DNA of 37,445 nt. Source: Candidatus Helarchaeota archaeon. Its GTDB lineage: Archaea; Asgardarchaeota; Lokiarchaeia; Helarchaeales; HEL-GB-A. This document shows, in pieces, positions 1,069-27,633 of the stretch (position 1 is the stretch's first letter; every line of letters begins with the position of its first letter). The translations under genes were made by a program, and so were the position numbers. Under the pieces are notes generated by a model, which saw only the letters and a list, made by a program, of their open reading frames with translations, did not search any database and was not told the origin of the DNA. The stretch covers positions 1 to 37,445 of the forward strand of contig JAEOSY010000013.1 of NCBI GenBank assembly GCA_016840125.1. Direction: 5' to 3'.

Positions 1069-3546
1069 ATGAAAAAAACGCACCTTCTCCGAGGCATTCT
1101 TCTACTGTCCGCAATATTTTTTTTAGTCCTCTATCCGCTAATGCCTCTCGACAATTCCGTATCGAATGATCTGTTCTCAATTTTGCGCTCGGAGGATCCA
1201 ACACTACAAGAAATAAGCGAAACTGCAGCCCAGGGGAATATAACTGGCGCAAAACTTCTTTTACACAGCTATTTCGTGAATAGAACCCTTGAGCCCTATT
1301 CAAAGATCTCGAGTAGTAATGTATCACATGAAATGCAGATGGCTGATTTAGTGATCCAACGCATTTTTACCATTATTGGGCGAACCTTTAGCATGTATAA
1401 TTGCTCAGAATCAGGTATTATAACCTTAAATAGCAGATCAATTTATGATACAAACTGGCACAGGAACCCTTATCCATACGATGATGAATGGATCTGGCAG
1501 CTAAGTCGTTGGGGATGGCTGCGAGATGTTGGACGTGCATATCTCGGGAATATCGCACTAGGTAATTTTTCTCTCGCTGAATATTATGCTGAAGCATTGG
1601 TAGACCTCGTAACGGACTTCATCCAGAAAGAGCCAGTTGGAACTGCCTATTCATGGCGGACAATCGATTCCGCCGGTCGAGTTTCAAATGCCATCGCCTC
1701 GGTTGAGGCGATTAAAAACAGTAGCGCCTTTACCCCCGAATTTTGCTACATCTTTTTACGATTCCTGGTAGATCATGGGCGTTATCTTGCGGATTTTCAT
1801 AAAACCCAATTTAACTGGGCGTTTATTGAATCAGGTGCAATGATTGAACTCTGCTCATTTTTACCGGAAATTACCCTAATCGATTCGTGGCAGCAAACTG
1901 CCTGGAGTCAATTCGAAACTGCAGTTGAAAATACATTTTACCCTGATGGGGGTAGTAAAGAGCAAGCCATTAATTATCACCGAGTTTCTACCGGTAGATT
2001 AGCAAGTGCGCTCCGTATCGCTCAACAGTTTAGCCACATTACAGCTCCTACAAATCTGCAAGATATGATTTGGAAGATGTACGTCTATATTTTACACAAT
2101 ACTCTACCGGATTATTATTCCACAACATTTGGTGATAGTGAAGTCGATTGGCATAAAGGGCACCTTGGATCTGCGTCCCAGCTCTGTGATCATCCAGAAT
2201 TAGATTATTTTGATGCGAATGGAGATCCTATTCCCGGTAATGATCCTCCGCGATTAAATGCGGCATTTCCTGACAGCGGTATTTACATCTCTCGGAGCGC
2301 TTGGAATGATTCGGACGCATTGTATTCATTTTTTGATGGCGGACCCTTTGGAGAGTTTTACCATTGTCATTATGACTTCGGTAGCATTCAAATCGCGGCG
2401 TTTGATAGAAGGTTAATTGTAGATCCTGGGCGTAGCTCTTATACAATGGACGAATTGAGCATCTATACCTTAGAGTCTTACAGTCACAACGTCGTCTTAA
2501 TTGACGGTAAGGGTCAGGGCTCTATTAACCCGACTTCCTCCTCCTGGGCAGCGGGGTATTTAGGATCTTGTGTTCGGGCTGCCCACACAGATTATGGGGC
2601 TACGTTAGAACGGGAAGTCACGTTTTCTAATTTCCGAAAAAATAATACTGGCGATATTAACTTAACTATTCCCTCGAGTTCAGACGATACGGGGCGTTAT
2701 TGGATTGTCTCGGACTTTTGGGGTGGGTCTGGTTCTCACGATGTAGCCATGCATTGGCAAATGCCATTATATCAACCAATTTTTATTGATAATAGTTCGA
2801 AGGAGATCAATCAATCCGACTTCGACAATTATATTCGCTGTGTAAAAACGGATTTCGGGTACGGAAACCTTGGGGTTTATGGATTTGGTCCATGGTCCCA
2901 GATTTTAAATATTTCTGGTGGTGACTCCGCTACATACGGTCAACCTTATGGATGGTATAATAATGAACTGGATCAGTTTGTGGAGGGTGTTACACTACGG
3001 TACTTGGGGAGTGTAAATGGTCCGAGTAATTGGTTTACTATACTCTATCCCGCCCAGAACGATCCTAATATATCTGTAATTACCCCTCTCTTTCAGTATG
3101 GGGGGCAGAGTTACATGAGTGGAGGATTAGGTAACGCCCCTGGGAATATTATATACGTTCAGCATGGAAATGGTGCTGAATTGCACATCACTCTCTCCGA
3201 ACCAACGACTGGGGCTAACCAGATTGAGTTAAATCTCACAGGTTATAACATTAGTTTCAAAGGGCGCCAAATCACTATTCACTTCAATTCAACTAACAAT
3301 ATTACGCAAGTTTTTACTCAATATTTAAAAGATTTATCAATTGACGGTGAAACCTTACTCTCTCTTAGTTCTGGGATTTTAAATATACATGAGAATAACA
3401 CGTTAAGTGCTGTAACATGTGGATTAGAGCCCTTGGATTCTATAAATTCAATCAATGTTGGTGCAAAACTATTACCTTCGACCAACTACACGATCGAAAA
3501 TAATGCAATTAGCCTTGGATCAATTATATTAGGAGGTAATTTCTAA
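1069..3546 (+). CDS. exported heparinase II/III-like polysaccharide lyase
   Basis: An 825-residue protein. Residues 8-26 form a hydrophobic signal or anchor, so it acts outside the cell. About 30-360 is an alpha-helical toroid-like domain typical of heparinase II/III and alginate-lyase families (NWAFIESGAMIE near 249-260, YPDGGSKEQAINYH at 291-304). About 395-600 is the beta-sandwich part, with GIYISRSAW, HCHYDFGSIQI at 432-442, RLIVDPG and SHNVVLIDG at 472-480. Conserved His and Tyr in INYH and HCHYD match where the lyase acid/base residues of this family lie. It should cleave uronic-acid polysaccharides by beta-elimination; the substrate cannot be read from sequence. Many N-x-S/T sequons suggest glycosylation. 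The stop overlaps the next start by one base (TAATG), so the two are probably co-translated. Confidence 0.8.
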   Translation: MKKTHLLRGILLLSAIFFLVLYPLMPLDNSVSNDLFSILRSEDPTLQEISETAAQGNITGAKLLLHSYFVNRTLEPYSKISSSNVSHEMQMADLVIQRIFTIIGRTFSMYNCSESGIITLNSRSIYDTNWHRNPYPYDDEWIWQLSRWGWLRDVGRAYLGNIALGNFSLAEYYAEALVDLVTDFIQKEPVGTAYSWRTIDSAGRVSNAIASVEAIKNSSAFTPEFCYIFLRFLVDHGRYLADFHKTQFNWAFIESGAMIELCSFLPEITLIDSWQQTAWSQFETAVENTFYPDGGSKEQAINYHRVSTGRLASALRIAQQFSHITAPTNLQDMIWKMYVYILHNTLPDYYSTTFGDSEVDWHKGHLGSASQLCDHPELDYFDANGDPIPGNDPPRLNAAFPDSGIYISRSAWNDSDALYSFFDGGPFGEFYHCHYDFGSIQIAAFDRRLIVDPGRSSYTMDELSIYTLESYSHNVVLIDGKGQGSINPTSSSWAAGYLGSCVRAAHTDYGATLEREVTFSNFRKNNTGDINLTIPSSSDDTGRYWIVSDFWGGSGSHDVAMHWQMPLYQPIFIDNSSKEINQSDFDNYIRCVKTDFGYGNLGVYGFGPWSQILNISGGDSATYGQPYGWYNNELDQFVEGVTLRYLGSVNGPSNWFTILYPAQNDPNISVITPLFQYGGQSYMSGGLGNAPGNIIYVQHGNGAELHITLSEPTTGANQIELNLTGYNISFKGRQITIHFNSTNNITQVFTQYLKDLSIDGETLLSLSSGILNIHENNTLSAVTCGLEPLDSINSINVGAKLLPSTNYTIENNAISLGSIILGGNF

Positions 3547-6317: not shown

Positions 6318-7442
6318 TTATTGACGATAGTATCCATATTTATATGCGGCATCAATGATTGCTTTCACATTTTCAATGGGTGCATCAAAAGCCACTTCAC
6401 AACCACTACTTAAAATAAAGCCACCACCTTCTCCAACAGTTTCTATTAGTTTCTTACTTTCTTTTTCGATTTCTTTCGAGGTTCCTAACCGTTGCAAGGT
6501 AGAATTAACGTTCCCCATGATTGAAAAGTTGGAACCACAAATTTCTTTCGCTTTTTGAATATCCGTGTTCTCTAGTTGAAGTGTGATTCCTTTTTTATGA
6601 GGTAGAAATTCATTAAACAATTCGAGCATGGGTGTCCAATCCGTATCGAAATGCAAATTGACTTGAAATCCATCACGCACAAGGTAGTCAACCATGATTT
6701 TTAAACTCGGGAAGAAGTATTCAGCACTCATTGTAGGTGAAATAAAGGTCGCTGATCCACGGACGCCCCCAATAAAAATGCGTTTATGGCCTTTTGCTTG
6801 GGAATACATAAATTCAGCCGTTGCAGCAAGACCTGGGGCCATAAATTCTGCAGTTTCCATAATTTTATCTGGTTGCTTGCGCATATCTATGAAAAATTTA
6901 CTCATGCCCCGAAGATGTGAAAGTAAATCAAACGGACTTATGGTTGTGGCAGAAATAAACGTATGAACCTGCCGTTCTCGTATCCAGTACTTGAGTTCTT
7001 TTTTCATTTTCGATTGCATGGAAAAAATATTTTGTAAACTGTAATCGCTTGGGCGTTTCAACCAAGGCATAACCCCCTCATTGATGATTTTATCATAATC
7101 CTCACGGTCCATTAAGGGATATTCCCGCATTTGTGGAGGTAGATTTTCGAGAAATTTCCAATCAAAGAAGAGACGTGAATGACTGTTGATAAATGGGGAG
7201 TTATAAAGTAATCCAACACCACCTGGAATGAAGGTAATAATATCTAATCCTTCATAAATTTCGAACACTTTTCGCGCCGCTTGTTGAGATACTTCAAAGT
7301 TAAATAGGAAGTCCCTTACGGGAACATCTGCTACTCTCGCTGCATGGGCTGCAATTAGAGGTGCGACAGGTACGCGATCCGCCTCTTTCAAATCAAGGGC
7401 GGTCTCAACACGTTCTATAGAATTCATTGTATCCTTATTCAT
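6318..7442 (-). CDS. URO-D-type corrinoid methyltransferase
   Basis: 374 residues from ATG 7442, which has AGGTGA eight bases upstream; GTG at 7454 is an alternative adding four residues. It belongs to the uroporphyrinogen-decarboxylase fold superfamily used by MtaA/CmuA-like methyltransferases: N-terminal RVPVAPLIAAHAAR, middle ISATTISPFDLL, and C-terminal VNLHFDTDW, IMGNVNSTL and GGGFILSSGCEV. Possible metal or substrate ligands are H264 and D266 (HFD) and C348 (SSGCE). True heme-pathway UroD is unlikely because no heme genes are nearby and the HFD/GC pattern is that of the methyltransferase branch. It probably moves methyl groups to or from a corrinoid protein encoded elsewhere. It overlaps a 51-residue upstream gene by eight bases. 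Substrate unknown. Confidence 0.75.
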   Translation of the reverse strand: MNKDTMNSIERVETALDLKEADRVPVAPLIAAHAARVADVPVRDFLFNFEVSQQAARKVFEIYEGLDIITFIPGGVGLLYNSPFINSHSRLFFDWKFLENLPPQMREYPLMDREDYDKIINEGVMPWLKRPSDYSLQNIFSMQSKMKKELKYWIRERQVHTFISATTISPFDLLSHLRGMSKFFIDMRKQPDKIMETAEFMAPGLAATAEFMYSQAKGHKRIFIGGVRGSATFISPTMSAEYFFPSLKIMVDYLVRDGFQVNLHFDTDWTPMLELFNEFLPHKKGITLQLENTDIQKAKEICGSNFSIMGNVNSTLQRLGTSKEIEKESKKLIETVGEGGGFILSSGCEVAFDAPIENVKAIIDAAYKYGYYRQ

Positions 7443-7590
7443 CACTTTTTTCACCTGTTAGCCGCGAATCGATAACTGGAGCCTCTTGAATCGACTTCAT
7501 AAATTTCTCCATTGAAAAAGTGGGTTCATCTTTCCCATAAAACAACTTTCCAATATCTTGCATCATTTTTTCTTTATCCATCTTCACCAT
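7435..7590 (-). CDS. small 51-residue protein coupled to the methyltransferase
   Basis: The frame begins ATG GTG AAG ATG and encodes a charged, Met-rich peptide (MVKMDKEKMMQDIGKLFYGK ... LTGEKSDE). It ends at TAA 7435-7437, overlapping the methyltransferase start. The overlap and the fit of the peptide right up to the next gene argue that it is translated. It has no cysteines and no membrane segment. It might be an accessory or regulatory leader protein; alternatively it is the N-terminal remnant of a split gene. I do not recognise the family. Confidence 0.45.
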   Translation of the reverse strand: MVKMDKEKMMQDIGKLFYGKDEPTFSMEKFMKSIQEAPVIDSRLTGEKSDE

Positions 7591-11856: not shown

Positions 11857-13653
11857 TTACTCTGGAGCTTCAGCTAACCGAGGAAGAAATATAGAAAATG
11901 TCGTTCCCTTACCAAATTCACTATCCACACTGATATTTCCTGCATGTAATTTGACAAACTCATTAGCAATTGATAATCCCAGCCCTGTACCTGGAATGGC
12001 AGCTACATCAGCTGCTCGGAAAAACCTTTCAAATAATCGGGGAAGATCCTTCTCATGAATACCGATTCCTGAATCACGAAATTGAATCCACATTCCATCT
12101 TCATCTCGTACGTTATATTCCCCTCTATAATGATCTATCACATTTATTTTCAAGGATCCCATTTTTTTCGTATATTTAATTGCATTATCAATGAAAATTC
12201 GGAAAATTTGACGGATCTTCTTCTCATCACCATAAAGATGCGTTTCCTCTGGTATAGAAATGGTTAATTTTATCTCCTTTTCTTTGAGGCGAGGTTCCAT
12301 TTGTTCCAACACTTTCTGTATAATTAAAGAAAGGTCATATTTTTCCCACTCTAATTCTACTCGGCTTTCGTCTAATTTTGAAATAATGAGGAGGTCTTCT
12401 AACAATTCAGCAAGAGCATCTGCGTTTAAAGAAATAATATTTGCCATTTTATGAAGAGTCTCCTTGGAAACAGTATCAAAATGGTTTAATATGATAGATG
12501 CTGATAACATAATTGCAGTCGTGGGAGACCTTAGCTCATGAGATACCATGGACACGAATTTCTTTCTTAAATCATCAATTTCTAGTAAGGTTTCTTTCGA
12601 TTCTTCTAAATCTTGGTAAATTCGTGCGTTTGATATTGCTAAAGCTGCTATTCTATTCAGAAAATGTATTAGATTAAGATAATGTTCTCTGTATTCGGGG
12701 AACTTGATATTGTTAATTTTAAGAAAGCCTAGTGTTTGGCGTTTGTATTCTATCTTTAAAGTAAATCCTTGTTCTGAAGGGTTCCAAAGAGAACTATCCT
12801 TCATATCACCAATTTGCTTAATCAGACTCTCACGATTGATGGTTATTTCTGTTGAAACTTGTAGGTTTCCCGGGTTTTTCTCAATAATCGGAAGATATAT
12901 GATATTTTTTGGCGCAAAAAGCATGGTGAGAATGTTAAAAAAGTTCTGAATTACTTTCTCCTCGGTGGTTATTCTTGTAATATTGTCAAGTAGGTCGAAT
13001 ATCATTGCATAATCCGCAAGCCGCCTATTTCTCATGTTGATTTCAGATGAAAACTTAGCTTCTTGTACTCTATCCCTCCATTCCAACACTATATTCGTTA
13101 TATATAATCTGAAGTGGTCCAAACCTACTGGAAGTGCTTCAAAAGGGCGATTAACAAATTCGGCAAACTCCTGAAGTTGAGTTTCAATGTCCTCAATGAC
13201 ACCCGTATCCAATAGGACGATTTTCTTTATCGATTCACCAAAAAACTCTTGCGCTGTTCTCTGATCAAATCCTCCCCTAGTGATATGGTCGCGCCAGCTA
13301 ACCAACCACCCTGGAGTCAAAGTATGGACTCCCTCCCGAAATAAGTGATTAACTAGGGTCTGATTCAAAAACATATAAGCACAGTTCGATAACTTACTAA
13401 TGCCGCAATTCTGTAATTCTTCAGGAGGGTTTCGAAGATGTGCAAAGCAGGTCCCCCCTATTAAATATGGATTGCTGTCTTCAGCTTTAATCTTTTGAAA
13501 TACCTTGATTATTTCCTTCCAATCTTTCGGGGATTGAAAGGTTTGAACTGGAAATGTTATGATTTGAACATCACTAAAATCCTCTTCATTCAAAACTCTC
13601 TTCGCTTCCCGCAAATAAGCCTCACAAATTAGAAGGGTGAGCTTATCTTTCAT
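11857..13653 (-). CDS. soluble histidine kinase with DUF1638-like and GAF-like sensor domains
   Basis: 598 residues from ATG 13653 (TTG 13662 possible). About 5-190 resembles DUF1638, a domain I recall near corrinoid methyltransferases: IGGTCFAHL, LSNCAYMFLNQTL, LTPGWLVSWRDH and IVLLDTG, with conserved Cys and His. About 215-345 is GAF-like. Then come a short coil, HisKA with phospho-acceptor H372 in FVSMVSHELRSP, and a HATPase domain: N-box DNAIKYTKK with N490, DSGIG 527-531, and GTGLGLSIANEFVK from 555. There is no membrane helix, so it senses inside the cell. No response regulator is visible in the window. It overlaps the end of the methyltransferase gene, placing it last in the four-gene cluster. 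It probably reads the state of the methyl-transfer reaction or its substrate; the ligand is unknown. Confidence 0.82.
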   Translation of the reverse strand: MKDKLTLLICEAYLREAKRVLNEEDFSDVQIITFPVQTFQSPKDWKEIIKVFQKIKAEDSNPYLIGGTCFAHLRNPPEELQNCGISKLSNCAYMFLNQTLVNHLFREGVHTLTPGWLVSWRDHITRGGFDQRTAQEFFGESIKKIVLLDTGVIEDIETQLQEFAEFVNRPFEALPVGLDHFRLYITNIVLEWRDRVQEAKFSSEINMRNRRLADYAMIFDLLDNITRITTEEKVIQNFFNILTMLFAPKNIIYLPIIEKNPGNLQVSTEITINRESLIKQIGDMKDSSLWNPSEQGFTLKIEYKRQTLGFLKINNIKFPEYREHYLNLIHFLNRIAALAISNARIYQDLEESKETLLEIDDLRKKFVSMVSHELRSPTTAIMLSASIILNHFDTVSKETLHKMANIISLNADALAELLEDLLIISKLDESRVELEWEKYDLSLIIQKVLEQMEPRLKEKEIKLTISIPEETHLYGDEKKIRQIFRIFIDNAIKYTKKMGSLKINVIDHYRGEYNVRDEDGMWIQFRDSGIGIHEKDLPRLFERFFRAADVAAIPGTGLGLSIANEFVKLHAGNISVDSEFGKGTTFSIFLPRLAEAPE

Positions 13654-14704
13654 AATCCTCAACCCAATCGAGCGGATAGCGCCCCCATTTGTGAACGGCT
13701 TTTGAGATGGCTAACAGAATTTTCTCCGGAACTTGCCATGGGATTTCACCATGATTGTCTGAAAGAATAAAACCTCCCCCTGGACCCGCCCGGGCAATTA
13801 AATCTTTTACCCTGGCTTCTGCTATCTGCGGCGTCCAAGTTCGCATCTCAATGCCGTTCAAATTTCCAAGGATACATATTTTACCCCGACAAGCTTCTTT
13901 TAATTCTGTAATATCTTCGAGGGTGCTAACTCCAACAATTAGCGCTCCAGAGTCTTTAATATCATCAATTATTGGTAAGGTTCGACCGGAAGCGAGATGA
14001 ATCGCAGCAGGACCTTTAAATTTCGAGAGGGTTCGTTTTGCAATTTTGTATCCCGTTTCCAAGTAAAGGGTCCTCGGAATAATTGTAGGAGACGAAATCG
14101 GATCAAAATATCCGATTGCGGTTGCCCCAGCATCTATTTGTGCATTGGCCCATTCAATACAAAACTTTTCATTCAATTTTATTAGATGGTTGAATAACTT
14201 TCGATTATCATATAGTAAGTCAAGATATCTATCAAATCCCATTTGCATAACTGGCAAGGAAAAGGGGGACATTACAACTCCGATAATAGGGGCTTCATCA
14301 CCAACTTCTGCTTTCAAACCCGCAGTCGCTTTTAAAACCTTCTGCAGACATTCAGCTTCTGATATTTCGGGCATTTCTAAAGTTTCTATCTCTTCTGAAC
14401 TTTCAATGACTGGTCTGCCTGAATTTGCCGGACCATCATCGCGAAAAATTACCTCTCCCCCCATAGCTTCTATCTCAATGGGTGCATAGAAGATGTTATA
14501 GAGGCAATCATTCTGATATTTTTTCCACATCCGAAGTTGGCCTTTGATTACGTTTTCAGCCTTTGAGAAATATTGAGAAATTGACATATTAAGTTCTTTT
14601 GCCCCATGCATTGTCACAAGTAGAAACAGCGGGACTCTATCAGGCTCCTTATGGCCAATCGTAGTTAAAACTCTTTGAAGAGAGCTTGTTTTTGTTGAAG
14701 ACAT
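13643..14704 (-). CDS. URO-D-type (MtaA-like) methyltransferase lacking Cys ligands
   Basis: 353 residues of the same superfamily as the 6318-7442 enzyme but clearly diverged: EPDRVPLFLLVTMHG near the N-terminus, VVMSPFSLPVMQMGFDRYLDLL in the middle, IHLASGRTLPIIDDI and GPGGGFILSDNHGEI at the end. In MtaA-type enzymes the zinc ligands sit in an HxC motif plus a later Cys; here these positions read H236-L-A238 and SDNHGE (315-320), so both cysteines are missing. It is therefore likely to use another metal arrangement or act directly on a methylated substrate. It lies two bases after the corrinoid-protein gene, its presumed partner, and overlaps the sensor kinase downstream. The ATG start abuts the corrinoid-gene stop. 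Confidence 0.78.
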   Translation of the reverse strand: MSSTKTSSLQRVLTTIGHKEPDRVPLFLLVTMHGAKELNMSISQYFSKAENVIKGQLRMWKKYQNDCLYNIFYAPIEIEAMGGEVIFRDDGPANSGRPVIESSEEIETLEMPEISEAECLQKVLKATAGLKAEVGDEAPIIGVVMSPFSLPVMQMGFDRYLDLLYDNRKLFNHLIKLNEKFCIEWANAQIDAGATAIGYFDPISSPTIIPRTLYLETGYKIAKRTLSKFKGPAAIHLASGRTLPIIDDIKDSGALIVGVSTLEDITELKEACRGKICILGNLNGIEMRTWTPQIAEARVKDLIARAGPGGGFILSDNHGEIPWQVPEKILLAISKAVHKWGRYPLDWVEDYER

Positions 14705-14706
14705 GT

Positions 14707-15345
14707 CTATTTTCCTCCCATTTGATTTATTAAATCTACAATTCTAGAGCCACTATAGCCATAAGCATCCGCCTCCACCTCTTTCCAGAGCTCCGCATCA
14801 AAATTGAACGGCGCACCCCCTACCACAATCTTTATTTTAGCATTAATATCTCTTAACTTTTTTGTAAGCTCCTTGATTTTCAACGCTGAAGGTAACATTA
14901 ACGTTGATATTAAAAGAAGTTCAATATCCTCCTCATTGATAGTATTAATTAGATCCTCTGTTGTGACTCCATGTCCTAAATCTAAAACATCAAACCCTGC
15001 AGAGCGTAAAATACTGAGAATAATTCGTTTCCCTAAAATATGATAATCTTCAAACACTGCAATTGCAATTCTTGGGTGTTTAATGCGTGCCGATGCACTT
15101 GATGGAAGGATTGCATTGATTAATTCTTCACAGATACGACCACTCATATAAACTTGAGACAGGGCAATTTCCCCTTTTTCCCAACTTTTTCCAATACGAT
15201 CTAGGGTTGGAATTATTATACTTTCTATGATTTGAAATGGATCATCAGAGGCTCTCGCATTCTCGAACAGCTTTTTGGCAGCCTGCCTATCAACTGCAAG
15301 GAGTGCTTGCTCAAAGTCATGAACTCTATCTTCAATTGATGACAT
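14707..15345 (-). CDS. corrinoid (methyl-B12) binding protein of a methyltransferase system
   Basis: 212 residues with the standard two-domain layout. A helical cap (1-88) contains SWEKGEIALSQVYMSGRICE. A Rossmann B12 domain (91-212) holds the cobalt-ligand motif DxHxxG as D100-Y-H102-I-L-G105, the S-x-L motif as S147-T-L149, and VVGGAPF at 174-180. It carries the methyl group between the substrate methyltransferase and the acceptor enzyme. Its start overlaps the last codons of the big surface-protein gene, and the URO-D enzyme follows after two bases, so all are likely made from one mRNA. Length and motifs match MtaC/MttC/MtmC-like proteins. No specific gene symbol is justified because the substrate is unknown. 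Confidence 0.9.
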   Translation of the reverse strand: MSSIEDRVHDFEQALLAVDRQAAKKLFENARASDDPFQIIESIIIPTLDRIGKSWEKGEIALSQVYMSGRICEELINAILPSSASARIKHPRIAIAVFEDYHILGKRIILSILRSAGFDVLDLGHGVTTEDLINTINEEDIELLLISTLMLPSALKIKELTKKLRDINAKIKIVVGGAPFNFDAELWKEVEADAYGYSGSRIVDLINQMGGK

Positions 15346-18300
15346 AGTTAAACATATCCCGAGACTTGGGTTTTCGTTTCTTATAATAGATTACAATAAC
15401 AACCAATAAATCAGCAAGGATGATAACCACTGTGAGGGTGCTTTCAGGTCCTATAGGTGGTTCCCCGCCTCCATTTCCACCCGGTGTTCCATACCCCATT
15501 CCGGCACTAAAGATTGGAGAGACTTCAGGAATTGTCTGATTATCACGGAGTTGAGCGAACATGAATTTTGGCCAGGTTCCATCTGAGCTGAGGTTCCATG
15601 CTACATCCTGCTGGTATGTGACCCAAGTTGTATTCTCCAAGGCACTGAGATTATTTGTGAGCCGCATTTCTGTTGCGTTAAAGGCATTAGAAAGAGTTCC
15701 ATCGTTTTCAACCTGATAGATTGTTAAGCTTACATTGGTCATTTTTGTTAATTTTGTTCCATTATTGATTATCAAACAGCCCTCTGGGGCTAGCACATTA
15801 TCTTTGGGCATTATTTCGTAGGCACGACTCAACCCTGTTTTCCCATTTGCGAGTGATTGGGCGGCGAACCGATAATAATAGGTGTTATAATTTATAACGG
15901 CTGGATCCGTGAAGTTGATAGTGAAAGGTCCGTTGAAAATCGGAGCTCCATAGTTAAAAACTGGGGTAGATGACCGGAAGACCGTGAGATTGTCATAATC
16001 TGATGGATTTGCGCTTATCAAGAAGGAAACTGTCCAATTCCCGGGATATGTGCGGATATTTGGAAATTTATCAATGGTATCATCTCTGGGATGTAATGGT
16101 TGCTGCCCTTTACTGATTTCTGATCCATCACCCTGACCACCTTCATCCGTATCGCCCTTGAGAGGATGGGTGCCATAAAAGAATTCATCCTCATTCATTA
16201 ACTCATCTCTGTCTGGATCTCCCAAAGCACCATCCTCCCCAACTGCGCTCGAGGCGTTCAAGCCATGAAATTTTTCCCATTTGTTGGGTAAACCGTCAAG
16301 ATCTGTATCATAATTCAAGGGTTCAGTATCTTTAAACACATGAAATGCGCCCGTTTTCAACCGGGTAAAGGGACCATACGGGCCTGAGACCCCTGTTGCG
16401 TTTATTAAAAATGAATAGGTTCCGTTTTCGGAGGTCTGCGTAAAATAATTCCCATAAATCCCATCGTTCGGAGCCCCATCGCCATGTCCGCCATCATCAA
16501 GTAACGGCATTAGGAATTTAGTTAAATTAGATTTATACCCAGGTGGTGTTGTTTCCATCCAGACATCCGCATTACGGATCGGTTGGGTATCGGATAAACT
16601 TACCATTATTGGGATGCGATCTCCAATATGATGCGCTTTTCCCCATTCCGACGATACGGATCCAATAGGGGGGGCCATAACCCGCATTGTGATCATCCCA
16701 TGTTCCGCGCCCTCAATGAAGTAGTTTAGGGACGCTACCGGGGAGATATTCACTCTCCAAGGACCAAAATCAGGATTAGATATGCGATATAATTTATGAC
16801 CCATCCCTGCTGCATCATATTCTCGCGTCTGAGAAATAGTAGTCCCATTAGGGGATTCTAATGTTATAGTTGGAGTTGCCGAGGAGTTATAATTCACCAC
16901 AATTTCTATCATATCGGCCTCATTTCCAACTGGTATAAGGAAGGAACTATTTCCTGTAACATTTCCCCTGGCTTGATAGAACCGCTGTAAATTCCGAACA
17001 GTCCCCACAATGGACCGGTAGATTTCGGCTAAATCATTTGGAATATCACCACTCGAGGGATCGAAGCAAAAATGATAGCTGCCACCTGTATCTGCCGCTA
17101 AATCCTGCATCTTCGCATGGTCTGCATCGGACCCGATTGTAATTGCATGCACTTTAGTGGCATTCCCTTGAAGCATGGGTTTGACATCCGCAATCGAAGG
17201 CATCCTGTTTTCCAGCCCGTCTGATAGTAGAATAATTTCCTTCGAGTAATTTGCAATACCCCGTAATGTTAGTTCATCTTGCCCTTTCCATAGACCATCG
17301 CCAATTGACGTTTGACCAATTGCAGTTATTCCTTCTATAGCAGTTATGGCGTTAGACCGGTTAGTAGAATCTAATTTTGTCAGTTGATGTAAAACAGTTG
17401 CTGAATTATTATACTTGACAACTGCCATTTGATCTCCACTGAGGTAACTATTTACATACAAAATGGCTGCATTCTGAGCTGCTAATAGTTTGTTATTTGT
17501 ACTCATGCTCGCAGAATGATCAATCACAACGGCATTATCAATATAGATCTCGCCATACTCGACCGAACTTAGTCGCAATGATGTCCCTATAGATGTACCA
17601 TCATTATCAACCAGATCCACCCTGAGCGCATATAGTCCATCAGCGGTTTGGTTTGGAGCTTGGATCTCAAGGAAATATTTTCCATAGACATCTACAGCCG
17701 ATACCACAGTTGCAGGCTCTAACCCAACCGTCGCACGAAAATTTTCGGTTGAAAACCCATGGATTGGGATTGTCATATCACTAACATCTACAACCGCCAC
17801 GAATTTTTCTGAGGCGTTATGGGGACCTGCCCGTGCTTTATACTGTAAGTTGGGGGTTTCGATTGTAACCTCGGGATCTGAATCCCAAACCCTATAGTCA
17901 CCCACCGCTGTATTAAAAAACTCATTATCTAACGTCACCACAATGAGCGCAATCTTGTCATAATTATCATTTACTATCGCCCGGCGAAAATTATTATTCG
18001 ACTCCACCGTGTAGGAATAGACCAGATCATTGCCCCGAATAGCCAATAAAGCATAAAATAGGGTATTTCCTATGGTTTCATTGATCTGAATTGTAACTGC
18101 ATTTACATCCGGGTCAAGACCGATCTCTTTATACTTACAAGCATAATTCATTAATTCAAAACTGCTTTGCCACGACCCACCTGAACTGAGATTTAAGATG
18201 GTTGGATCAATAAGGCTTGAATATGCTGCGGATCCATCCCCCGCGTTATCATCCACGTACTTCCATTCCGATGGGACTGTGGAATCCGCCAAATCTTTGG

Positions 18301-19225
18301 CATAATTCGCAACGCAAAAATTTTCAAACACGTCATCAAAAGTGGTCCCCGGACTTAAGCTGTTTAACGCTTTATTGAGCATGGTAATCCCATCTTGGCC
18401 TACCGGGTTCACCGCGGTATCCCAGAAGGTAGTCAAGGCATCAATCCCATAATCAGCATCCGTCTTATCCGCCCCAAATTGCTCCAAATAGTAATTCCAG
18501 AAAAGACAAGCCGCGTAGGATAGCTGGGTTAGGTCAATATCGGTACTTGATTCTAGGTAGCCATTTAATTCTCTCAAATAGCTGGTCCCAAGTTCGGTAC
18601 CATCTGCGTGATCTAGCCAATCAGAGAGTTTATCCTGAAGCATACGGGCCTGTCCTTCAATAACCCAATCTTTTGGGGGATCACCGGGATGTCTAAATTG
18701 TGTTAGATGGAACATTTCATGACCTGCCACTTTTTTTGGCTCTGCATAGTTAAAATAATCGGGATCTGTATGAGCTAAGTATTGTGGCAGAAATTGTAAC
18801 GTGAAATTTTCATCACCCCAGCAGACTGCCATACCATTATATCCTGTTGTGTCCGGTATCCATACCTCCACCGGCGGCTCATACCCCCCTTCCATTGGAT
18901 CAGGCAAGCTCCATCTGGTTGTAAGTTGATAGTAGACTGCTTCCAAGAGATCTGCAAACTGCTCCACTTCCGCTTGCTCAGTATAGAGATCATTCCAAAT
19001 CATGTAAAACCGCCCATAATCTGAGAGAAATGGAAGCTGCCAAGCACTAGTCTTGAGGTTATTTGATGATGAATTTTGCGATTCAACGGTGGAAATCGGT
19101 ATAACTCCATTACTAAATAAACTCATGAGAAAAATTAAACTGAATATACCACAAATTAAAATATTTCTAGGTTTTCTGCTTACAGAATTTCCCATCTTTC
19201 TCAAACTCCGATTTTTCATCCTCAT
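15332..19225 (-). CDS. giant surface protein: HExxH peptidase-like, VWA and Ca-binding repeats (CLCA-like layout)
   Basis: 1297 residues. Signal/anchor helix 20-42. About 60-320 is a metallopeptidase-like domain with H169-E-M-F-H173 and a later Glu in WVIEGQA (E190), a gluzincin pattern. A beta region follows to 550. The VWA domain at 562-740 has a complete MIDAS: D569-H-S571-A-S573, T639 and D669. At about 755-850 is a beta-sheet domain, and at 855-965 a beta-sandwich with LDDGGHGDGAPNDGIYG. About 972-1050 holds Asp-rich calcium loops (DTDLDGLPNKWE, GDPDRDELMNEDE). A last beta domain precedes a membrane helix at 1262-1280 and a basic tail. HExxH-VWA-beta order resembles CLCA proteins, which self-cleave. 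ATG 19219 has better Shine-Dalgarno spacing. The end overlaps the corrinoid gene by 14 bases. Confidence 0.85.
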   Translation of the reverse strand: MRMKNRSLRKMGNSVSRKPRNILICGIFSLIFLMSLFSNGVIPISTVESQNSSSNNLKTSAWQLPFLSDYGRFYMIWNDLYTEQAEVEQFADLLEAVYYQLTTRWSLPDPMEGGYEPPVEVWIPDTTGYNGMAVCWGDENFTLQFLPQYLAHTDPDYFNYAEPKKVAGHEMFHLTQFRHPGDPPKDWVIEGQARMLQDKLSDWLDHADGTELGTSYLRELNGYLESSTDIDLTQLSYAACLFWNYYLEQFGADKTDADYGIDALTTFWDTAVNPVGQDGITMLNKALNSLSPGTTFDDVFENFCVANYAKDLADSTVPSEWKYVDDNAGDGSAAYSSLIDPTILNLSSGGSWQSSFELMNYACKYKEIGLDPDVNAVTIQINETIGNTLFYALLAIRGNDLVYSYTVESNNNFRRAIVNDNYDKIALIVVTLDNEFFNTAVGDYRVWDSDPEVTIETPNLQYKARAGPHNASEKFVAVVDVSDMTIPIHGFSTENFRATVGLEPATVVSAVDVYGKYFLEIQAPNQTADGLYALRVDLVDNDGTSIGTSLRLSSVEYGEIYIDNAVVIDHSASMSTNNKLLAAQNAAILYVNSYLSGDQMAVVKYNNSATVLHQLTKLDSTNRSNAITAIEGITAIGQTSIGDGLWKGQDELTLRGIANYSKEIILLSDGLENRMPSIADVKPMLQGNATKVHAITIGSDADHAKMQDLAADTGGSYHFCFDPSSGDIPNDLAEIYRSIVGTVRNLQRFYQARGNVTGNSSFLIPVGNEADMIEIVVNYNSSATPTITLESPNGTTISQTREYDAAGMGHKLYRISNPDFGPWRVNISPVASLNYFIEGAEHGMITMRVMAPPIGSVSSEWGKAHHIGDRIPIMVSLSDTQPIRNADVWMETTPPGYKSNLTKFLMPLLDDGGHGDGAPNDGIYGNYFTQTSENGTYSFLINATGVSGPYGPFTRLKTGAFHVFKDTEPLNYDTDLDGLPNKWEKFHGLNASSAVGEDGALGDPDRDELMNEDEFFYGTHPLKGDTDEGGQGDGSEISKGQQPLHPRDDTIDKFPNIRTYPGNWTVSFLISANPSDYDNLTVFRSSTPVFNYGAPIFNGPFTINFTDPAVINYNTYYYRFAAQSLANGKTGLSRAYEIMPKDNVLAPEGCLIINNGTKLTKMTNVSLTIYQVENDGTLSNAFNATEMRLTNNLSALENTTWVTYQQDVAWNLSSDGTWPKFMFAQLRDNQTIPEVSPIFSAGMGYGTPGGNGGGEPPIGPESTLTVVIILADLLVVIVIYYKKRKPKSRDMFNYVIN

Positions 19226-20200: not shown

Positions 20201-21415
20201 ATGATTATGGAAGACGAACGAGTAGCAATATTAATGTTGAGTGATGGGACCTGTTTTGCAGGAACCGGTTTCGGTGCCGTAAAAAAAGTCCAAAAAAAGG
20301 TCCAAGGTGAGGTCGTATTCAATAGTACCATGGTAGGGTATCCTGGAATACTGACCGATCCCACTTATTATGGGCAAATTCTTCTTATGACCTATCCCTT
20401 AATAGGTAATATAGGCATTGCGGACCCTAATGCACGGGATGAATGGAATATCCCGCAATTCTTTGAATCTGATTATGATCATTACGCCCCGGGCCAGCAA
20501 ACCACACCGTATGAAACCCATCCGAATCCCCGCTTATTTAAAAATACGGGATTAGTTGTGTTTGAACTGTGTAAACAACCCTCCCACTGGAAAATGAAAA
20601 TGACTTTGGACGAGGCACTAAAGAAGCAAGGGGTCCCAGGGATCGAGGGAATTGATACTCGGGAACTCATGAAAAAATTTCGGGATGAGGGCGAAACTAC
20701 AGGAATTTTACAAGTTTTCGATGAAAATGAAGAGCCTGATATTGATCAATTAAAGAAGGAAGCTTCAAAAATCCCCAATCCAGGTGAAAAGAACTTTATA
20801 AAGGATATTTCCGTTAAAGAACCAATAGTATACCAACAAAAGAATGGGGCTCCGACAACAGTTTTAATTGATCTGGGTACCAAGATGAATATCATTAGGA
20901 GCCTTCTGAATCGAAATGTAACAGTCGTTCGTGTCCCATACAATTTTTCCATAGATCAGATTCTGGAATATAATCCTAATGGGGTGGTTATTTCCAATGG
21001 TCCTGGGAATCCAAACCATCCAGACTTAAAACCTACCATTGCAACGATTCAGGCGCTAGTCGAGAAAGACATTCCGTTATTGGGAATTTGTCTTGGGAAT
21101 CAGGTCTTTTCTCTAGCGATGGGTGCGAAACTTTATCGTATGAAATGCGGTCATCGGAGTCCAAATCAGACGTCTATGGATTTAGAAACCAAACGCTGTT
21201 ACCCTACTATTCAAAATCATGGATTCGCAATCGATAAGGACTCAATAGACAAAACCAACTTAAAATTATGGTTCAAAAATGTGAATGATAATACGATCGA
21301 AGGCGTTAAGCACAAAACAGCACGAGCCGTTTCCGTAGAATTCCATCCTGAATTGCAACCAGCTCCCATTGACGCGAAATATGTGTATGATCAATTTGTG
21401 GAGTTACTGAGGTGA
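20201..21415 (+). CDS. carA: carbamoyl-phosphate synthase small (glutaminase) subunit, copy 1
   Basis: 404 residues; it releases ammonia from glutamine for the large subunit. An N-terminal CarA domain (about 8-200) precedes the class I amidotransferase domain (about 218-404), with nucleophile C297 in LGICLGNQ and H382/E384 in EFHPE. The usual GHQ after the nucleophile reads GNQ. Between YPLIGN and LCKQPSHW lies a stretch about 25 residues longer than in bacteria, with WNIPQFFESD resembling the FES motif of eukaryotic CAD. GIEGIDTREL is conserved. AAGGA lies four bases before ATG 20201 and ten before ATG 20207, so either may be used. CarB copy 1 starts five bases after the stop. Confidence 0.93.
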   Translation: MIMEDERVAILMLSDGTCFAGTGFGAVKKVQKKVQGEVVFNSTMVGYPGILTDPTYYGQILLMTYPLIGNIGIADPNARDEWNIPQFFESDYDHYAPGQQTTPYETHPNPRLFKNTGLVVFELCKQPSHWKMKMTLDEALKKQGVPGIEGIDTRELMKKFRDEGETTGILQVFDENEEPDIDQLKKEASKIPNPGEKNFIKDISVKEPIVYQQKNGAPTTVLIDLGTKMNIIRSLLNRNVTVVRVPYNFSIDQILEYNPNGVVISNGPGNPNHPDLKPTIATIQALVEKDIPLLGICLGNQVFSLAMGAKLYRMKCGHRSPNQTSMDLETKRCYPTIQNHGFAIDKDSIDKTNLKLWFKNVNDNTIEGVKHKTARAVSVEFHPELQPAPIDAKYVYDQFVELLR

Positions 21416-21420
21416 ATTAA

Positions 21421-24400
21421 ATGGCACGATATGAGTGGATAAAAAAAGTATTAATTTTATCGTCAGGGGCGGTTAGGATCGGTCAGGCAGGCGAATTTGA
21501 TTACTCAGGAAGCCAATGTATTAAGGCCATGCGCGAAGAGGGTATTGAAACTGTTTTAATCAATCCAAACATCGCAACAATTCAAACTGATCCGAAACTT
21601 GCAGGGAAAGTCTATTTATTACCTCTTATTCCAAGTTTTATTGAAAAGGTTATTGAAAAAGAGCGACCTGATTCCGTTTTACTATCCTTTGGAGGACAAA
21701 CAGGTTTAAACTGTGGCGCACAATTAGCAGAACAGGGTATTCTTGAGAAATATAATATTAAAGTCCTGGGAACTCCTGTAAAGGCGATTCAGGATACTGA
21801 AGATCGGGAGCGTTTCAGGCAAGCTATGATGCGGGCAAACGTCAAAATCCCAGCGAGTAAAGTCGCGAACACCCTTGAAGAGGCGTTTGAAATTGCAAAA
21901 GAAATTGGCTTTCCCTTAATTATCCGTCCCGCCTTCACGCTCGGAGGCAAGGGTTCTGGCGTGGCTCGGAATAAAGAAGATTTCGAAAAAATTGTAAATG
22001 TGGGATTAACCCAGAGTATGATCCACCAAGTTCTAGTTGAAGAATATTTAGATCTCCCAAATTGGAAGGAAATTGAATACGAAGTCGTTCGTGACCGCGA
22101 TAATAGTTGCCTAATCGCATGCACTATGGAAAATATAGATCCAATGGGAATCCACACGGGTGATAGTATTGTGGCAGCCCCAGTTCAAACTCTAACTGCC
22201 TCAGAGAATGCTCGCTTATGTGATGCTTCCGTCCGTGTAATTCGCCAACTTGGGATCGTAGGTGAATGTAACATTCAATATGCGTTGCACGCCAAATCTG
22301 AAGAATTCCGCGCGATCGAAATTAATGCCCGCCTCTCACGGTCTAGTGCCTTGGCCTCCAAAGCCACAGGCTATCCATTAGCCTATATCGCAGCGAAACT
22401 CGCTATAGGCTACACGCTCCCTGAAATTGCAAACACTATCACCGGGACAACAACTAGTTGTTTTGAACCGACGCTCGACTATATGTGTGTTAAATTTCCG
22501 CGTTTTGATACGGTTAAATTCCGCGGTGAGGTGAGCCGGCGTATCGGTACGCAGATGAAGAGTGTCGGAGAGGTTATGGCAATTGGACGGACCCTTGAGG
22601 AAACTATCCAAAAAGCGATTCGCATGCTCGAAATAGGGAAGGTTGGATTAGTCGGGAATCCTGATGAAGAGATTGAGGAATCATTAGATAGTCTTAGAAA
22701 GGCAATAGCAGAGCCTACCGATGAGCGTCTATTTAAATTAGTGAAGGGGCTTAAAAAAGGGCTATCAGTTGATGAGGTCTACCAATTATCCGGGATCGAT
22801 CGGTGGTTCTTATATAAATTCAAGCATATTATAGACATCGAGAACCAATTAAAAGCGTTTAATATGCTAACCGATGAGAAAAAGTTAGCGAAGTTAATTC
22901 GAAAAGCTAAAGTCTATGGATTTTCAGATCAACAAATCGCCCAATGCCTCAAAATGGACGATTTAAGCATCCGGCGTATCCGTCAAAAAAATGGAATTGT
23001 ACCCGCCATAAAACAAATCGATACGATGGCTGCAGAATACCCTGCAAAACGAAATTATCTCTACGCCACCTACTGTGGTAATACTGACGATATTGAGTTC
23101 AAGAAGGTAGATAAAAAAATTATAGTCCTTGGTTCAGGGGTATATCGTATTGGAAGTAGTGTGGAGTTCGACTGGGGATCCGTTAATTTAGTTTGGGCTT
23201 TGAAGGAACTGAACATTGATGAAGTTATCATGATTAATTATAACCCTGAAACCGTCTCCACGGATTACGATATAAGCGATAAACTTTATTTTGAAGAGAT
23301 GACATTAGAACGGGTTCTTGACATTTACGAGAAAGAAAATCCCTATGGGATTGTCGTTTCTGTGGGCGGTCAAATACCAAATAATTTAGCCCCTCAGTTG
23401 ATGAAAGCTGGAGAATACTATAAAACGGTCCATGTCAATATTCTTGGGACGTTGGGACGAAATATTGACAAAGCGGAAGATAGAGCGAAATTCAGTAGTA
23501 TTTTGGATCAATTAAATATTGGCCAGCCCGAATGGAATGCTTTAAGTGATATGAAAGAGGCAGAAGCATTCGCAAATAAAGTGGGCTACCCTGTGTTGGT
23601 TCGCCCTAGTTATGTTCTCAGTGGCCAAGCCATGAACGTAGCGTATTCCAAAAAGCAGCTAATAAATTACCTTCAATACGCGGCGAGTGTCTCCAAAATA
23701 CATCCAGTCGTTATTACAAAATATATCGAGAACGCTCGGGAAGTTGAAGTGGATGGAATATCAGATGGCGAAGATGTTCTCATCGGTGCTGTTATCGAAC
23801 ATGTGGAAAATGCAGGCACCCACTCAGGAGATGCCTCTATGGTCATTCCACCCCAATCACTTGATTCAACGGTAATTTCCAAAATTGAGGATTATTCAAA
23901 ACAAATCGCTCGAGCTCTACAAATAAAGGGGCCTTTTAATGTGCAGTACATTGTAAAAGATAACAATGTGTCGGTCATAGAGTGTAATTTAAGGTCCAGC
24001 AGGTCGATGCCATACGTAACTAAAACCAAAGGTGTAAATTTAATAAAAATCGCAGCATCAGTGATGTTGGGGAAGAAATTAAGCGAGATAATGCCTAAAG
24101 GCATTCTCAAAACCTCTGATATCACCTACGCCTCTACTAAGATCCCTCAATTTTCTTTTATGCGACTCACAGGGGCAGATCCTATCTTGGGTGTGGAAAT
24201 GGTTTCGACAGGAGAGGTTGCCTGTATAGGTGAAGACTTTTATGAGGCACTTCTAAAAGGTCTTCTCGCGGCTGAGTTTGATGTCCCGCTAAACGGTGGC
24301 AATGTCTTAATTACAGTTGGGGGTAAACTCAAAGAGTCCGTTGTTCCGCTGGCCATAAAACTAGACAAACTGGGATATAAAATATTTGCAACTGCCCATA

Positions 24401-24738
24401 CCGCTGATGTATTCACAAAGAACAATATTCCCGCCATAACGCTTCATAAAATAAAGGATCCCTCACTAAAGCCAAATATTCTAGATTATCTTCTCGAACA
24501 GAAGATAGATTTAGTCATAAATATTCCCTCATCACAAACTTTGGAAAAAATGGTCGATATACTTGAGGACGAGTATGAAATTCGCCGGAGAGCTGTTGAA
24601 TTCAACGTTCCTGTCATTACCAACTTGGAGTTTGCGAATGCTTTAGTGATCGCCCTTGAAAAATCACAACGAAGAGAATTTACTTATACTGGTTTACATG
24701 AATATTTGTCGAAGTTACCCTTCAGATACGGAATTTAA
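21421..24738 (+). CDS. carB: carbamoyl-phosphate synthase large subunit, copy 1
   Basis: 1105 residues, the normal full length, making carbamoyl phosphate from bicarbonate, ammonia and two ATP. The order is: first preATP-grasp (RIGQAGEFDYSGSQ, NPNIATIQT), first ATP-grasp (about 130-400, with LGGKGSGVA and NARLSRSSALASKATGYPLA), oligomerisation region (about 410-550), second preATP-grasp (YRIGSSVEFDW, NPETVSTDYD), second ATP-grasp (about 675-870, with RPSYVLSGQAMNVAY and NLRSSRSMPYV), then the MGS-like allosteric domain (about 955-1105). NPNIATIQT and NARLSRSSALASKATGYPL are the forms I recall from eukaryotic CAD and Bacteroidota rather than E. coli-type CarB. It pairs with carA copy 1. It should feed pyrimidine or arginine synthesis; no other pathway gene is in the window. 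Confidence 0.95.
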   Translation: MARYEWIKKVLILSSGAVRIGQAGEFDYSGSQCIKAMREEGIETVLINPNIATIQTDPKLAGKVYLLPLIPSFIEKVIEKERPDSVLLSFGGQTGLNCGAQLAEQGILEKYNIKVLGTPVKAIQDTEDRERFRQAMMRANVKIPASKVANTLEEAFEIAKEIGFPLIIRPAFTLGGKGSGVARNKEDFEKIVNVGLTQSMIHQVLVEEYLDLPNWKEIEYEVVRDRDNSCLIACTMENIDPMGIHTGDSIVAAPVQTLTASENARLCDASVRVIRQLGIVGECNIQYALHAKSEEFRAIEINARLSRSSALASKATGYPLAYIAAKLAIGYTLPEIANTITGTTTSCFEPTLDYMCVKFPRFDTVKFRGEVSRRIGTQMKSVGEVMAIGRTLEETIQKAIRMLEIGKVGLVGNPDEEIEESLDSLRKAIAEPTDERLFKLVKGLKKGLSVDEVYQLSGIDRWFLYKFKHIIDIENQLKAFNMLTDEKKLAKLIRKAKVYGFSDQQIAQCLKMDDLSIRRIRQKNGIVPAIKQIDTMAAEYPAKRNYLYATYCGNTDDIEFKKVDKKIIVLGSGVYRIGSSVEFDWGSVNLVWALKELNIDEVIMINYNPETVSTDYDISDKLYFEEMTLERVLDIYEKENPYGIVVSVGGQIPNNLAPQLMKAGEYYKTVHVNILGTLGRNIDKAEDRAKFSSILDQLNIGQPEWNALSDMKEAEAFANKVGYPVLVRPSYVLSGQAMNVAYSKKQLINYLQYAASVSKIHPVVITKYIENAREVEVDGISDGEDVLIGAVIEHVENAGTHSGDASMVIPPQSLDSTVISKIEDYSKQIARALQIKGPFNVQYIVKDNNVSVIECNLRSSRSMPYVTKTKGVNLIKIAASVMLGKKLSEIMPKGILKTSDITYASTKIPQFSFMRLTGADPILGVEMVSTGEVACIGEDFYEALLKGLLAAEFDVPLNGGNVLITVGGKLKESVVPLAIKLDKLGYKIFATAHTADVFTKNNIPAITLHKIKDPSLKPNILDYLLEQKIDLVINIPSSQTLEKMVDILEDEYEIRRRAVEFNVPVITNLEFANALVIALEKSQRREFTYTGLHEYLSKLPFRYGI

Positions 24739-26415: not shown

Positions 26416-27633
26416 ATGATACAAATGACGTCAGAACGTAAAGCAATTCTCATGCTAAATGATGGAACCTATTTTGAAGGGATCGGCTTTGGTGCCACAA
26501 AAGAAGTTGGCGGTGAAGTAGTCTTTAATACAGGCATGGTTGGCTATCCTGAGAGTATGACTGATGCCTCATATCAAGGACAGATTCTTACCTTTACTTA
26601 TCCCTTAATTGGGAATTATGGAGTTCCCGATCCAGACGCAAGAGATAAATGGAATCTTCCTCGTTTCTTTGAATCTGATTTCGATGAATATCGTCCTAAT
26701 CAACAAACAGAAGATCATAATAAACATCCCAAACCTCAAGGAATTAGAGTTAACGGAATCATCATACATGAACTTTGTAAAGAACCATCTCATTGGAATG
26801 CTAAAATGAGTCTAGATCAATGGATGAAGAGTGAAGGGATTCCGGGTATAGAGGGGGTAGACACCCGTGAACTGACGAAAAAACTAAGAGTTCATGGAGT
26901 TATGCTTGGATTATTGAAAATATATGATGAAGGTGAACAGCCCGACCCGAGCAAATTGACAGAGAAAGCTCTGAAAGTTCAGGATCCAAATGATAGAAAT
27001 CTAGTTGGAGAAGTCTCAGTTAAAACCCCCATAATTTATGAGAATAATGGATCCGCTAAGATTGTACTGATTGATGTAGGGGCTAAATTAAACATCATTC
27101 GAAATCTACTAGCTCGCAATTTAACAGTCATTAGAGTGCCTTACAATTTTTCCGCTAAAGAAATCTTGGAATATAAACCAAATGGGTTTTTTATTACGAA
27201 TGGACCGGGAGATCCTAAGCATGACAGTTTAAAGCCAACGATCGCCGCGGTACGAGAGCTCACTGACGAAGGATTACCTTTAATGGGGATTTGCTATGGG
27301 AATCAAATTTTTTCATTGGCTATGGGAGCTGATACGTACAAATTGAAATATGGTCATCGTTCACAAAATCAACCTAGCATGGATTTAGAGACTGGACGAT
27401 GTTATATTACTACACAGAATCATGGGTTTGCTGTCGATGCCGATTCCTTGAAAGATACGGATTTAAAGCTATGGTTCATTAATGTTAATGATAAGACAGT
27501 GGAAGGCGTCAAGCATACTAAGAAGAACGCCTTTTCGGTTCAATTTCATCCTGAACACTTCCCTGGTCCAGTCGATGCCGAATATCTCTTCGAGGAGTAT
27601 ATTAAAAGAATAGGTAATGGAGGGGGGCAATAA
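26416..27633 (+). CDS. carA: carbamoyl-phosphate synthase small (glutaminase) subunit, copy 2
   Basis: 405 residues, colinear with copy 1 and clearly its paralogue, but diverged by amino-acid changes throughout. The amidotransferase triad is intact: C293 in GICYGNQ, H378 and E380 in QFHPEHFPGP. Compared with copy 1 it is closer to the eukaryotic pattern (YPLIGNYGVPD, WNLPRFFESD, GIEGVDTRELTKKLR, YGHRSQNQP, QNHGFAVD, FINVND). It shares the long loop after FESD. There is no evident Shine-Dalgarno motif at ATG 26416. The stop overlaps carB copy 2 by one base (TAATG), tighter than the five-base gap in copy 1. Confidence 0.93.
   Translation: MIQMTSERKAILMLNDGTYFEGIGFGATKEVGGEVVFNTGMVGYPESMTDASYQGQILTFTYPLIGNYGVPDPDARDKWNLPRFFESDFDEYRPNQQTEDHNKHPKPQGIRVNGIIIHELCKEPSHWNAKMSLDQWMKSEGIPGIEGVDTRELTKKLRVHGVMLGLLKIYDEGEQPDPSKLTEKALKVQDPNDRNLVGEVSVKTPIIYENNGSAKIVLIDVGAKLNIIRNLLARNLTVIRVPYNFSAKEILEYKPNGFFITNGPGDPKHDSLKPTIAAVRELTDEGLPLMGICYGNQIFSLAMGADTYKLKYGHRSQNQPSMDLETGRCYITTQNHGFAVDADSLKDTDLKLWFINVNDKTVEGVKHTKKNAFSVQFHPEHFPGPVDAEYLFEEYIKRIGNGGGQ

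Follow-up and report, generated by a model that had tools for sequence, protein, structure and literature searches.

A DUF1638 histidine kinase encoded with a corrinoid protein and a URO-D-fold protein in a Helarchaeota contig: a candidate corrinoid-coupled sensor kinase

Described corrinoid systems and the Helarchaeota locus

The closest described counterparts of the locus reported here, which lies in a 37,445 nucleotide stretch of DNA from a Candidatus Helarchaeota archaeon (contig JAEOSY010000013.1; hereafter the window), are the corrinoid methyltransferase pairs of the MtaA, MtbA, and CmuA type. The locus encodes, on the minus strand, a corrinoid protein, a protein of the URO-D/MtaA fold, and a histidine kinase bearing DUF1638, a domain of unknown function. 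The first two display the same folds as the methyltransferase pairs, and the corrinoid DxHxxG motif is retained. A His-x-Cys motif provides the zinc ligand pair of MtaA and MtbA, and the Methanosarcina kinase MsmS is linked to methyltransferases. RdmS from Methanosarcina is cytoplasmic and is named as a methyltransferase-associated sensor kinase in the title of a paper; RdmS and MsmS lack an H-box, whereas the window kinase has both an H-box and DUF1638 (PMC11784639). The mec cassette of dichloromethane fermenters likewise places a histidine kinase beside corrinoid and URO-D-superfamily proteins, but its sensor, MecA, is of the PocR type and is accompanied by an encoded receiver and MTII, whereas the window sensor is of the DUF1638-GAF type (PMC9768040).

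DUF1638 itself has been encountered in connection with B12. The gene for PGA1_c13340, a stand-alone DUF1638 protein from Phaeobacter inhibens, adjoins that for the B12-binding part of a split, B12-dependent methionine synthase, with which its fitness correlates, and methionine rescues the mutants (PMC5764234). The available portion of that paper proposes no specific function and mentions no signaling, whereas in the window DUF1638 is fused to a kinase. In R. pomeroyi, a DUF1638 protein is more abundant on N-osmolytes and is predicted to help in cobalamin recharging (PMC12478193). A literature search for DUF1638, covering the available parts of the papers retrieved, revealed nothing that joined the domain to a kinase.

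A sequence-only reading of the window had assembled these three genes and that for a large CLCA-like surface protein into one unit. Only three of the four recur as a unit, and we are inclined to regard these three as encoding a cytoplasmic corrinoid-coupled sensor kinase. Both the recurrence of the cassette without the surface gene and the presence of DUF1638 at the N-terminus of the kinase are absent from that earlier reading. Feature coordinates are provided in Table 1.

Table 1. Features of the cassette and its upstream neighbor, with window coordinates
Feature	Positions	Strand	Remarks
Corrinoid gene	14707-15345	minus	212 residues; B12-binding_2 cap PF02607 4.5e-15; B12-binding PF02310 1.5e-21
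URO-D/MtaA-fold gene	13643-14704	minus	353 residues; PF01208 8.9e-54; highly conserved subfamily
Sensor histidine kinase gene	11857-13653	minus	598 residues from ATG 13653; 601 residues from TTG 13662
DUF1638 in kinase	13108-13506	minus	residues 50-182; PF07796 8.2e-13
GAF in kinase	12610-13038	minus	residues 206-348; from predicted structure, not Pfam
HisKA + HATPase_c core	11878-12567	minus	PF00512 7.4e-10; PF02518 9.1e-27
CLCA-like surface gene (upstream neighbor)	15332-19225	minus	1297 residues; open frame as in the sequence-only reading; N-terminal hydrophobic segment, C-terminal membrane segment with basic tail
Overlap of surface gene end with corrinoid start	15332-15345	minus	14 bases, read directly

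A recurring three-gene cassette and its proteins

The order corrinoid protein, URO-D, and DUF1638 sensor region is preserved in all ten of the other loci that carry a close URO-D (G001-G004, G381, G623, G721, G728, G752, and Azoarcus sp. KH32C). The URO-D proteins of these loci are 53-66% identical to that of the window, and the corrinoid relatives are 43-52% identical. Four of the loci (one from Spirochaetia, one from Bacteroidetes, and two from Bacteroidales) were found with the corrinoid protein and six with the URO-D; those genes are thus present by selection, but the third gene is not. The kinase is fused to the sensor region or lies in the next frame at eight of the ten. Hence, the methyl-transfer pair and sensor kinase of the sequence-only reading hold together as a gene set. 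The fourth gene, that for the surface peptidase, is matched at none of the loci in the stretch read.

The cassette occurs in Spirochaetota, Bacteroidota, and Pseudomonadota in addition to the window archaeon. The close URO-D is rare, because few genomes were matched per search (E up to 1e-80): 1 of 198 in the phylum of G003, 2 of 296 in the phylum of G001, and 5 of 295 in the order of G003, these searches overlapping in the genomes covered. The Azoarcus locus (URO-D 58.8% identical) emerged from a search of plasmids. There the cassette is positioned between fae/formylmethanofuran genes and a pyrroloquinoline quinone methanol/ethanol dehydrogenase cluster, namely genes of methanol oxidation. 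The kinase that comes after it scores 351.7 bits against the NahK/ErcS model, short of the cut-off of 400. Frame fusions are observed as well. In G728, a URO-D shortened to residues 1-231 continues in the same frame into residues 148-343 of the sensor, with the sensor match beginning only at 148, and in G381 the URO-D and DUF1638 share one frame with the GAF-kinase part in another. Searches of viral contigs with the URO-D, the URO-D alignment, and the surface protein yielded nothing useful.

A second, looser type of locus, found in two bacterial phyla, consists of a corrinoid gene, a distant URO-D (19-23% identical to the window URO-D for the seven aligned in set A3), DUF1638, and then a mostly separate sensor kinase. 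In the order of G003, a search located DUF1638 at 18 places distributed over 17 of 295 genomes, and nine of these places adjoin corrinoid and/or URO-D genes (eight by neighbor match, L064 from its frames and Pfam). These nine comprise G752, with a fused kinase and a close URO-D, G623, with a stand-alone DUF1638 and a close URO-D, and seven places with a distant URO-D. A gene with a kinase domain comes next in five of the seven (L056, L057, L060, L061, and L064); the next gene at L059 showed only PAS domains in the fetched stretch, and L058 is truncated by the end of its contig. The URO-D and DUF1638 of L061 are in one frame. The same search in the phylum of G001 gave 33 places in 23 of 296 genomes, one of them below the family cut-off. 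Seven of the 30 places fetched adjoin a URO-D (G001, G381, L076, L080, L082, L083, and L092), and all but L083 also matched a corrinoid gene. A separate sensor gene is present at L076, L080, and L092; that of L076 and that of L080 have a kinase domain, whereas L092 showed only PAS domains in the fetched stretch. DUF1638 is in one frame with a kinase at L083 and L082 (the latter from reading of the translation only). Given that this second type repeats the logic of the cassette with mostly separate genes, it lends support to a corrinoid-coupled sensor kinase.

The kinase itself matches the DUF1638 family PF07796 at 1.9e-12 and 47.8 bits, above the gathering cut-off of 27. Its HELRSP, NAIKY, DSGIGI, and GTGLGL motifs indicate that the H-box, N-box, and ATP-lid are intact. 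No membrane segment is predicted in the kinase, the corrinoid protein, or the URO-D, and the kinase is thus a soluble DUF1638-GAF-histidine kinase that probably senses in the cytoplasm. The external methoxylated substrate suggested in the sequence-only reading finds no direct support. A search with the sensor region (residues 1-340) retrieved 263 proteins, its own included. Among 44 sensor proteins scanned (43 picked from 119 listed relatives plus the window fragment), DUF1638 was present in 44, HATPase_c in 22, GGDEF in five, and SpoIIE in one, a distribution that suggests one sensor with several outputs. When the sensor model was compared with known structures, the outcome reflected mainly the GAF domain; for the DUF1638 part there was no clear match among the matches listed, which does not in itself point to a new fold. 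Three DUF1638 proteins of ∼420 residues (P0026, P0041, and P0076) carry a Cys-rich tail (CKKIR ... CPDC) in place of the kinase, a further type of output that is as yet unassigned.

The URO-D belongs to a tightly conserved group. In an alignment of 39 members (A2: 34 picked from 119 listed relatives, four loci, and the window), the mean column identity is 78%, D316-N317-H318-G319-E320 is invariant, and H236 is found in 38. The predicted model (pLDDT 92.5) has MtaA (4ay7) as its best Foldseek match with HemE structures close behind, and superimposes on 4ay7/4ay8 with TM-scores of 0.81-0.84 by query. A search with the single sequence placed HemE (4wsh, 1.1e-10) ahead of MtaA (2.6e-9), whereas a profile search placed MtaA 4ay7 first. 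Note that the MtaA cysteine position, two residues past the conserved histidine, is occupied by alanine in 39 of 39 members (A238-S239 in the window). The fold of MtaA and MtbA is present and their histidine is aligned, but the His-x-Cys pair is not present; the third ligand of their zinc falls beyond the aligned segment. There is no cysteine at this position in the seven aligned URO-Ds of the second type either, although in L056 and L058 a cysteine occurs four residues past the histidine. Scores fall below the cut-offs of all five NCBIfam families matched, including PRK06252 (102.5 versus 244 bits), MtaA (87.8 versus 400), MtbA (62.3 versus 600), and TIGR01463 (85.8 versus 235.4). Assignment as an MtaA-type coenzyme M/thiol methyltransferase was rejected on these two grounds, and since the cysteine is missing, thiol activation in the manner of MtaA is unlikely. 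By analogy with CdmB, a URO-D-superfamily MTI showing no zinc (PMC13222342), a role on the methyl-donor side could be envisaged, as could one in binding alone. A second, diverged URO-D, encoded at 6318-7454 on the minus strand and 4 kb from the cassette, shares 22% identity with the cassette URO-D; its first site reads HFD, and a cysteine is located near its second (SSGCEV).

The corrinoid protein contains both B12-binding domains of the MtbC/MtgC-type methyltransferase corrinoid proteins, and its DxHxxG motif reads DYHILG (residue 100). All of its scores against the family models are below cut-off: TIGR02370, 2e-29 and 102.4 bits (cut-off 215.3); MtgC_2, 82.5 bits (370); and MtbC, 75.5 bits (350). 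It also matches CarH-type proteins (5c8a, 4.7e-5; NF052513, 3.8e-11), which would fit a B12 photoreceptor or cobalamin sensor in which adenosylcobalamin is bound to the corrinoid protein and light or the availability of B12 governs the kinase. We consider such a function highly improbable, as the matches to methyltransferase corrinoid proteins are far better (7xcn, 2.4e-16, and TIGR02370) and the conserved URO-D partner would be left without a role.

The CLCA-like neighbor and other genes of the window

The four minus-strand frames are as tightly packed as the sequence-only reading described. The surface gene overlaps the corrinoid gene by 14 bases, the URO-D start is two bases past the corrinoid stop, and the kinase overlaps the URO-D gene by 11 bases from ATG 13653 or by 20 if the upstream TTG 13662 is used. 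The corrinoid start agrees with the N-terminal length of its relatives. A terminator scan of 15000-15700, of a type that does not model archaeal terminators, gave no site on the minus strand and one on the plus strand. Because of the 14-base overlap, co-transcription of the surface gene with the downstream three genes is likely in this one genome.

The broad domain calls made earlier are confirmed by domain searches of all four proteins. The surface protein has an HExxH site at 169 (HEMFH), a VWA domain (566-727) with DxSxS at 569, DxDxD sites at 973 and 1003, and a choice-of-anchor X domain; HExxH metalloprotease and CLCA-channel families match below threshold. It resembles the CLCA metalloprotease family in having an HExxH site upstream of a VWA domain and a beta domain further downstream, and CLCA-type proteins have been reported previously in bacteria and archaea (PMC3650047). 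The CLCA model TIGR00868 scores 74.2 bits against a cut-off of 900.85 and covers only residues 566-945, and CLCA-named Pfam families gave no match at E up to 0.1. In its family of 44, the window protein included, HExxH occurs anywhere in 40 and DxSxS in all. Of the 43 other homologues, the six with organism names are all from Asgard archaea: Helarchaeota, Lokiarchaeota (three), Heimdallarchaeota, and Promethearchaeota. Two homologues, P0138 and P0141, have the same longest-contig size (37,700), a hint of paralogues on one Asgard contig.

The 14-base overlap could be taken to mean that all four genes form one unit, in which the surface peptidase and the methyltransferase sensor act on an external substrate. 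The comparative data render this very unlikely. The surface gene was unmatched in the stretches read at all ten bacterial cassette loci (surface protein query, E 1e-4), eight of which had at least 7 kb of upstream sequence, with less at G381 and G721. Because the six named homologues are all Asgard, its lack in bacteria is weak evidence. As an indirect proxy for linkage, identical contig size was taken as a hint of one contig and the lists of matches were compared pairwise (the best 120 of 263 kinase matches, the best 120 of 4356 URO-D matches, and 44 of 44 surface matches). The kinase and URO-D lists have 12 sizes in common, counting the window's own; a jittered control of 2000 draws gave 0.97 on average and six at most. 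The 43 other surface homologues have no size in common with either list (119 other kinases and 119 other URO-D relatives). Indeed, P0002, the nearest kinase relative among the matches listed, and the URO-D P0170 both lie on contigs of 16,033 bases, a size missing from the surface list. The surface protein was rejected as a cassette member on the basis of the ten loci and the proxy. It is probably a separate Asgard neighbor and not part of the module, and it may share a transcript with the cassette in this genome.

Elsewhere in the window, positions 20201-24738 and 26416-30947 contain tandem carbamoyl-phosphate synthase pairs (small and large subunit), the large subunits of which are 74% identical (818 of 1103), and a 314-residue protein encoded between them has no Pfam match. 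A repetitive protein of 1369 residues, encoded on the plus strand at 33339-37445, runs off the window and displays repeats of the NTLTDNTAYNNTGSG kind, which we take to resemble the NosD/parallel beta-helix type, and DxDxDG-like motifs near its end. A 133-residue cysteine-rich CCG-domain protein (PF02754; 32872-33273, minus strand) may represent part of a longer protein resembling heterodisulfide reductase. Finally, a heparinase II/III-like protein (PF16889, PF07940) is encoded at 1069-3546 in this archaeal contig.

Proposed corrinoid-coupled sensing and its alternatives

On the reading we prefer, the URO-D would bind a small methylated compound and would present it, or transfer its methyl group, to the corrinoid protein. 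DUF1638 would dock on the corrinoid protein and detect whether the latter is methylated or in which redox state it is, the GAF linker would relay that state to the histidine kinase, and the kinase would phosphorylate a partner encoded elsewhere. Given the context of the Azoarcus cassette, methanol or another one-carbon (C1) compound would be the first candidate ligand. The gene set, its recurrence, the domain fusion, the intact corrinoid and kinase motifs, and the URO-D active-site pattern are observed, whereas the methyl-donor ligand, the contact between DUF1638 and the corrinoid protein, and the direction of signaling are inferred.

In favor of this reading are the preserved gene order at the ten loci, the several outputs joined to one sensor, the second type of locus, the fitness correlation of stand-alone DUF1638 with methionine synthase, and the setting of the Azoarcus cassette. 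In addition, six of nine cassette genomes showed no RACo-type reactivase and eight of nine no MTTB (found in one), so that there is often little sign of a catabolic methyl pathway; these absences are soft, because the cassette genomes are metagenome-assembled genomes of unstated completeness. The B12-binding_2 domain occurs in nine of nine, and in G001 and G721 only at the cassette itself.

Several observations weigh against a corrinoid-coupled sensor kinase. No response regulator was recognized among the 22 window proteins scanned. A DUF1638 cysteine that is near-invariant (40 of 44) is threonine in the window kinase. At G623 and G721, DUF1638 stands alone with no kinase matched in the stretch read, and sensing is thus not universal. 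Azoarcus is the sole locus with an obvious C1 context. A RACo-type reactivase was seen in three of nine cassette genomes. Lastly, no corrinoid or URO-D match was found within ∼1.5 kb at nine of the 18 DUF1638 places in the order of G003 and at 23 of the 30 fetched in the phylum of G001. The neighbors of two such places, L047 and L055, were scanned with Pfam: DUF1638 adjoins a RACo at L055 and a hydantoinase-like protein and a pterin-binding protein at L047.

Some of the same facts would suit an ordinary methyltransferase operon, in which the URO-D is an MTI demethylase that loads the corrinoid protein, with the DUF1638 kinase acting mainly in corrinoid reactivation or assembly or as a local regulator of the operon. 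Zinc-free MTIs of the URO-D superfamily exist, as exemplified by CdmB (PMC13222342), a kinase gene accompanies the corrinoid and URO-D genes of the mec cluster (PMC9768040), DUF1638 has been linked to B12 reactivation, and at G623 and G721 the trio lacks a kinase. Among the cassette and flanking genes scanned, however, no MTII was noticed; MTTB and RACo are sparse in the cassette genomes; and DUF1638 is fused to varied signaling outputs. We judge such an operon to be rather unlikely, and retain the corrinoid-coupled sensor kinase as the preferred explanation.

A bolder proposal, which we offer tentatively, is that of sensing by catalysis. A dedicated URO-D devoid of the His-x-Cys pair would, together with the corrinoid protein, chemically sample a methylated metabolite, and DUF1638 would translate the methylation or redox state of the corrinoid into a kinase, diguanylate cyclase, or phosphatase output. 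The cassettes would then represent a widespread receptor class that shares DUF1638, as a reader of the corrinoid state, with B12 reactivation.

The cassette can be viewed as a methyltransferase-associated sensor kinase akin to MecA and RdmS, in which DUF1638 would be the new reader. The compact three-gene set ties this domain of unknown function to signaling. The regulation of the 26 methyltransferase systems of Acetobacterium dehalogenans has been called largely unexplored (PMC13222342). If the corrinoid-coupled sensor kinase is correct, methyl-transfer chemistry would itself serve as the C1 sensor, and this would help to explain how methyl metabolism is regulated in methylotrophs and anaerobes.

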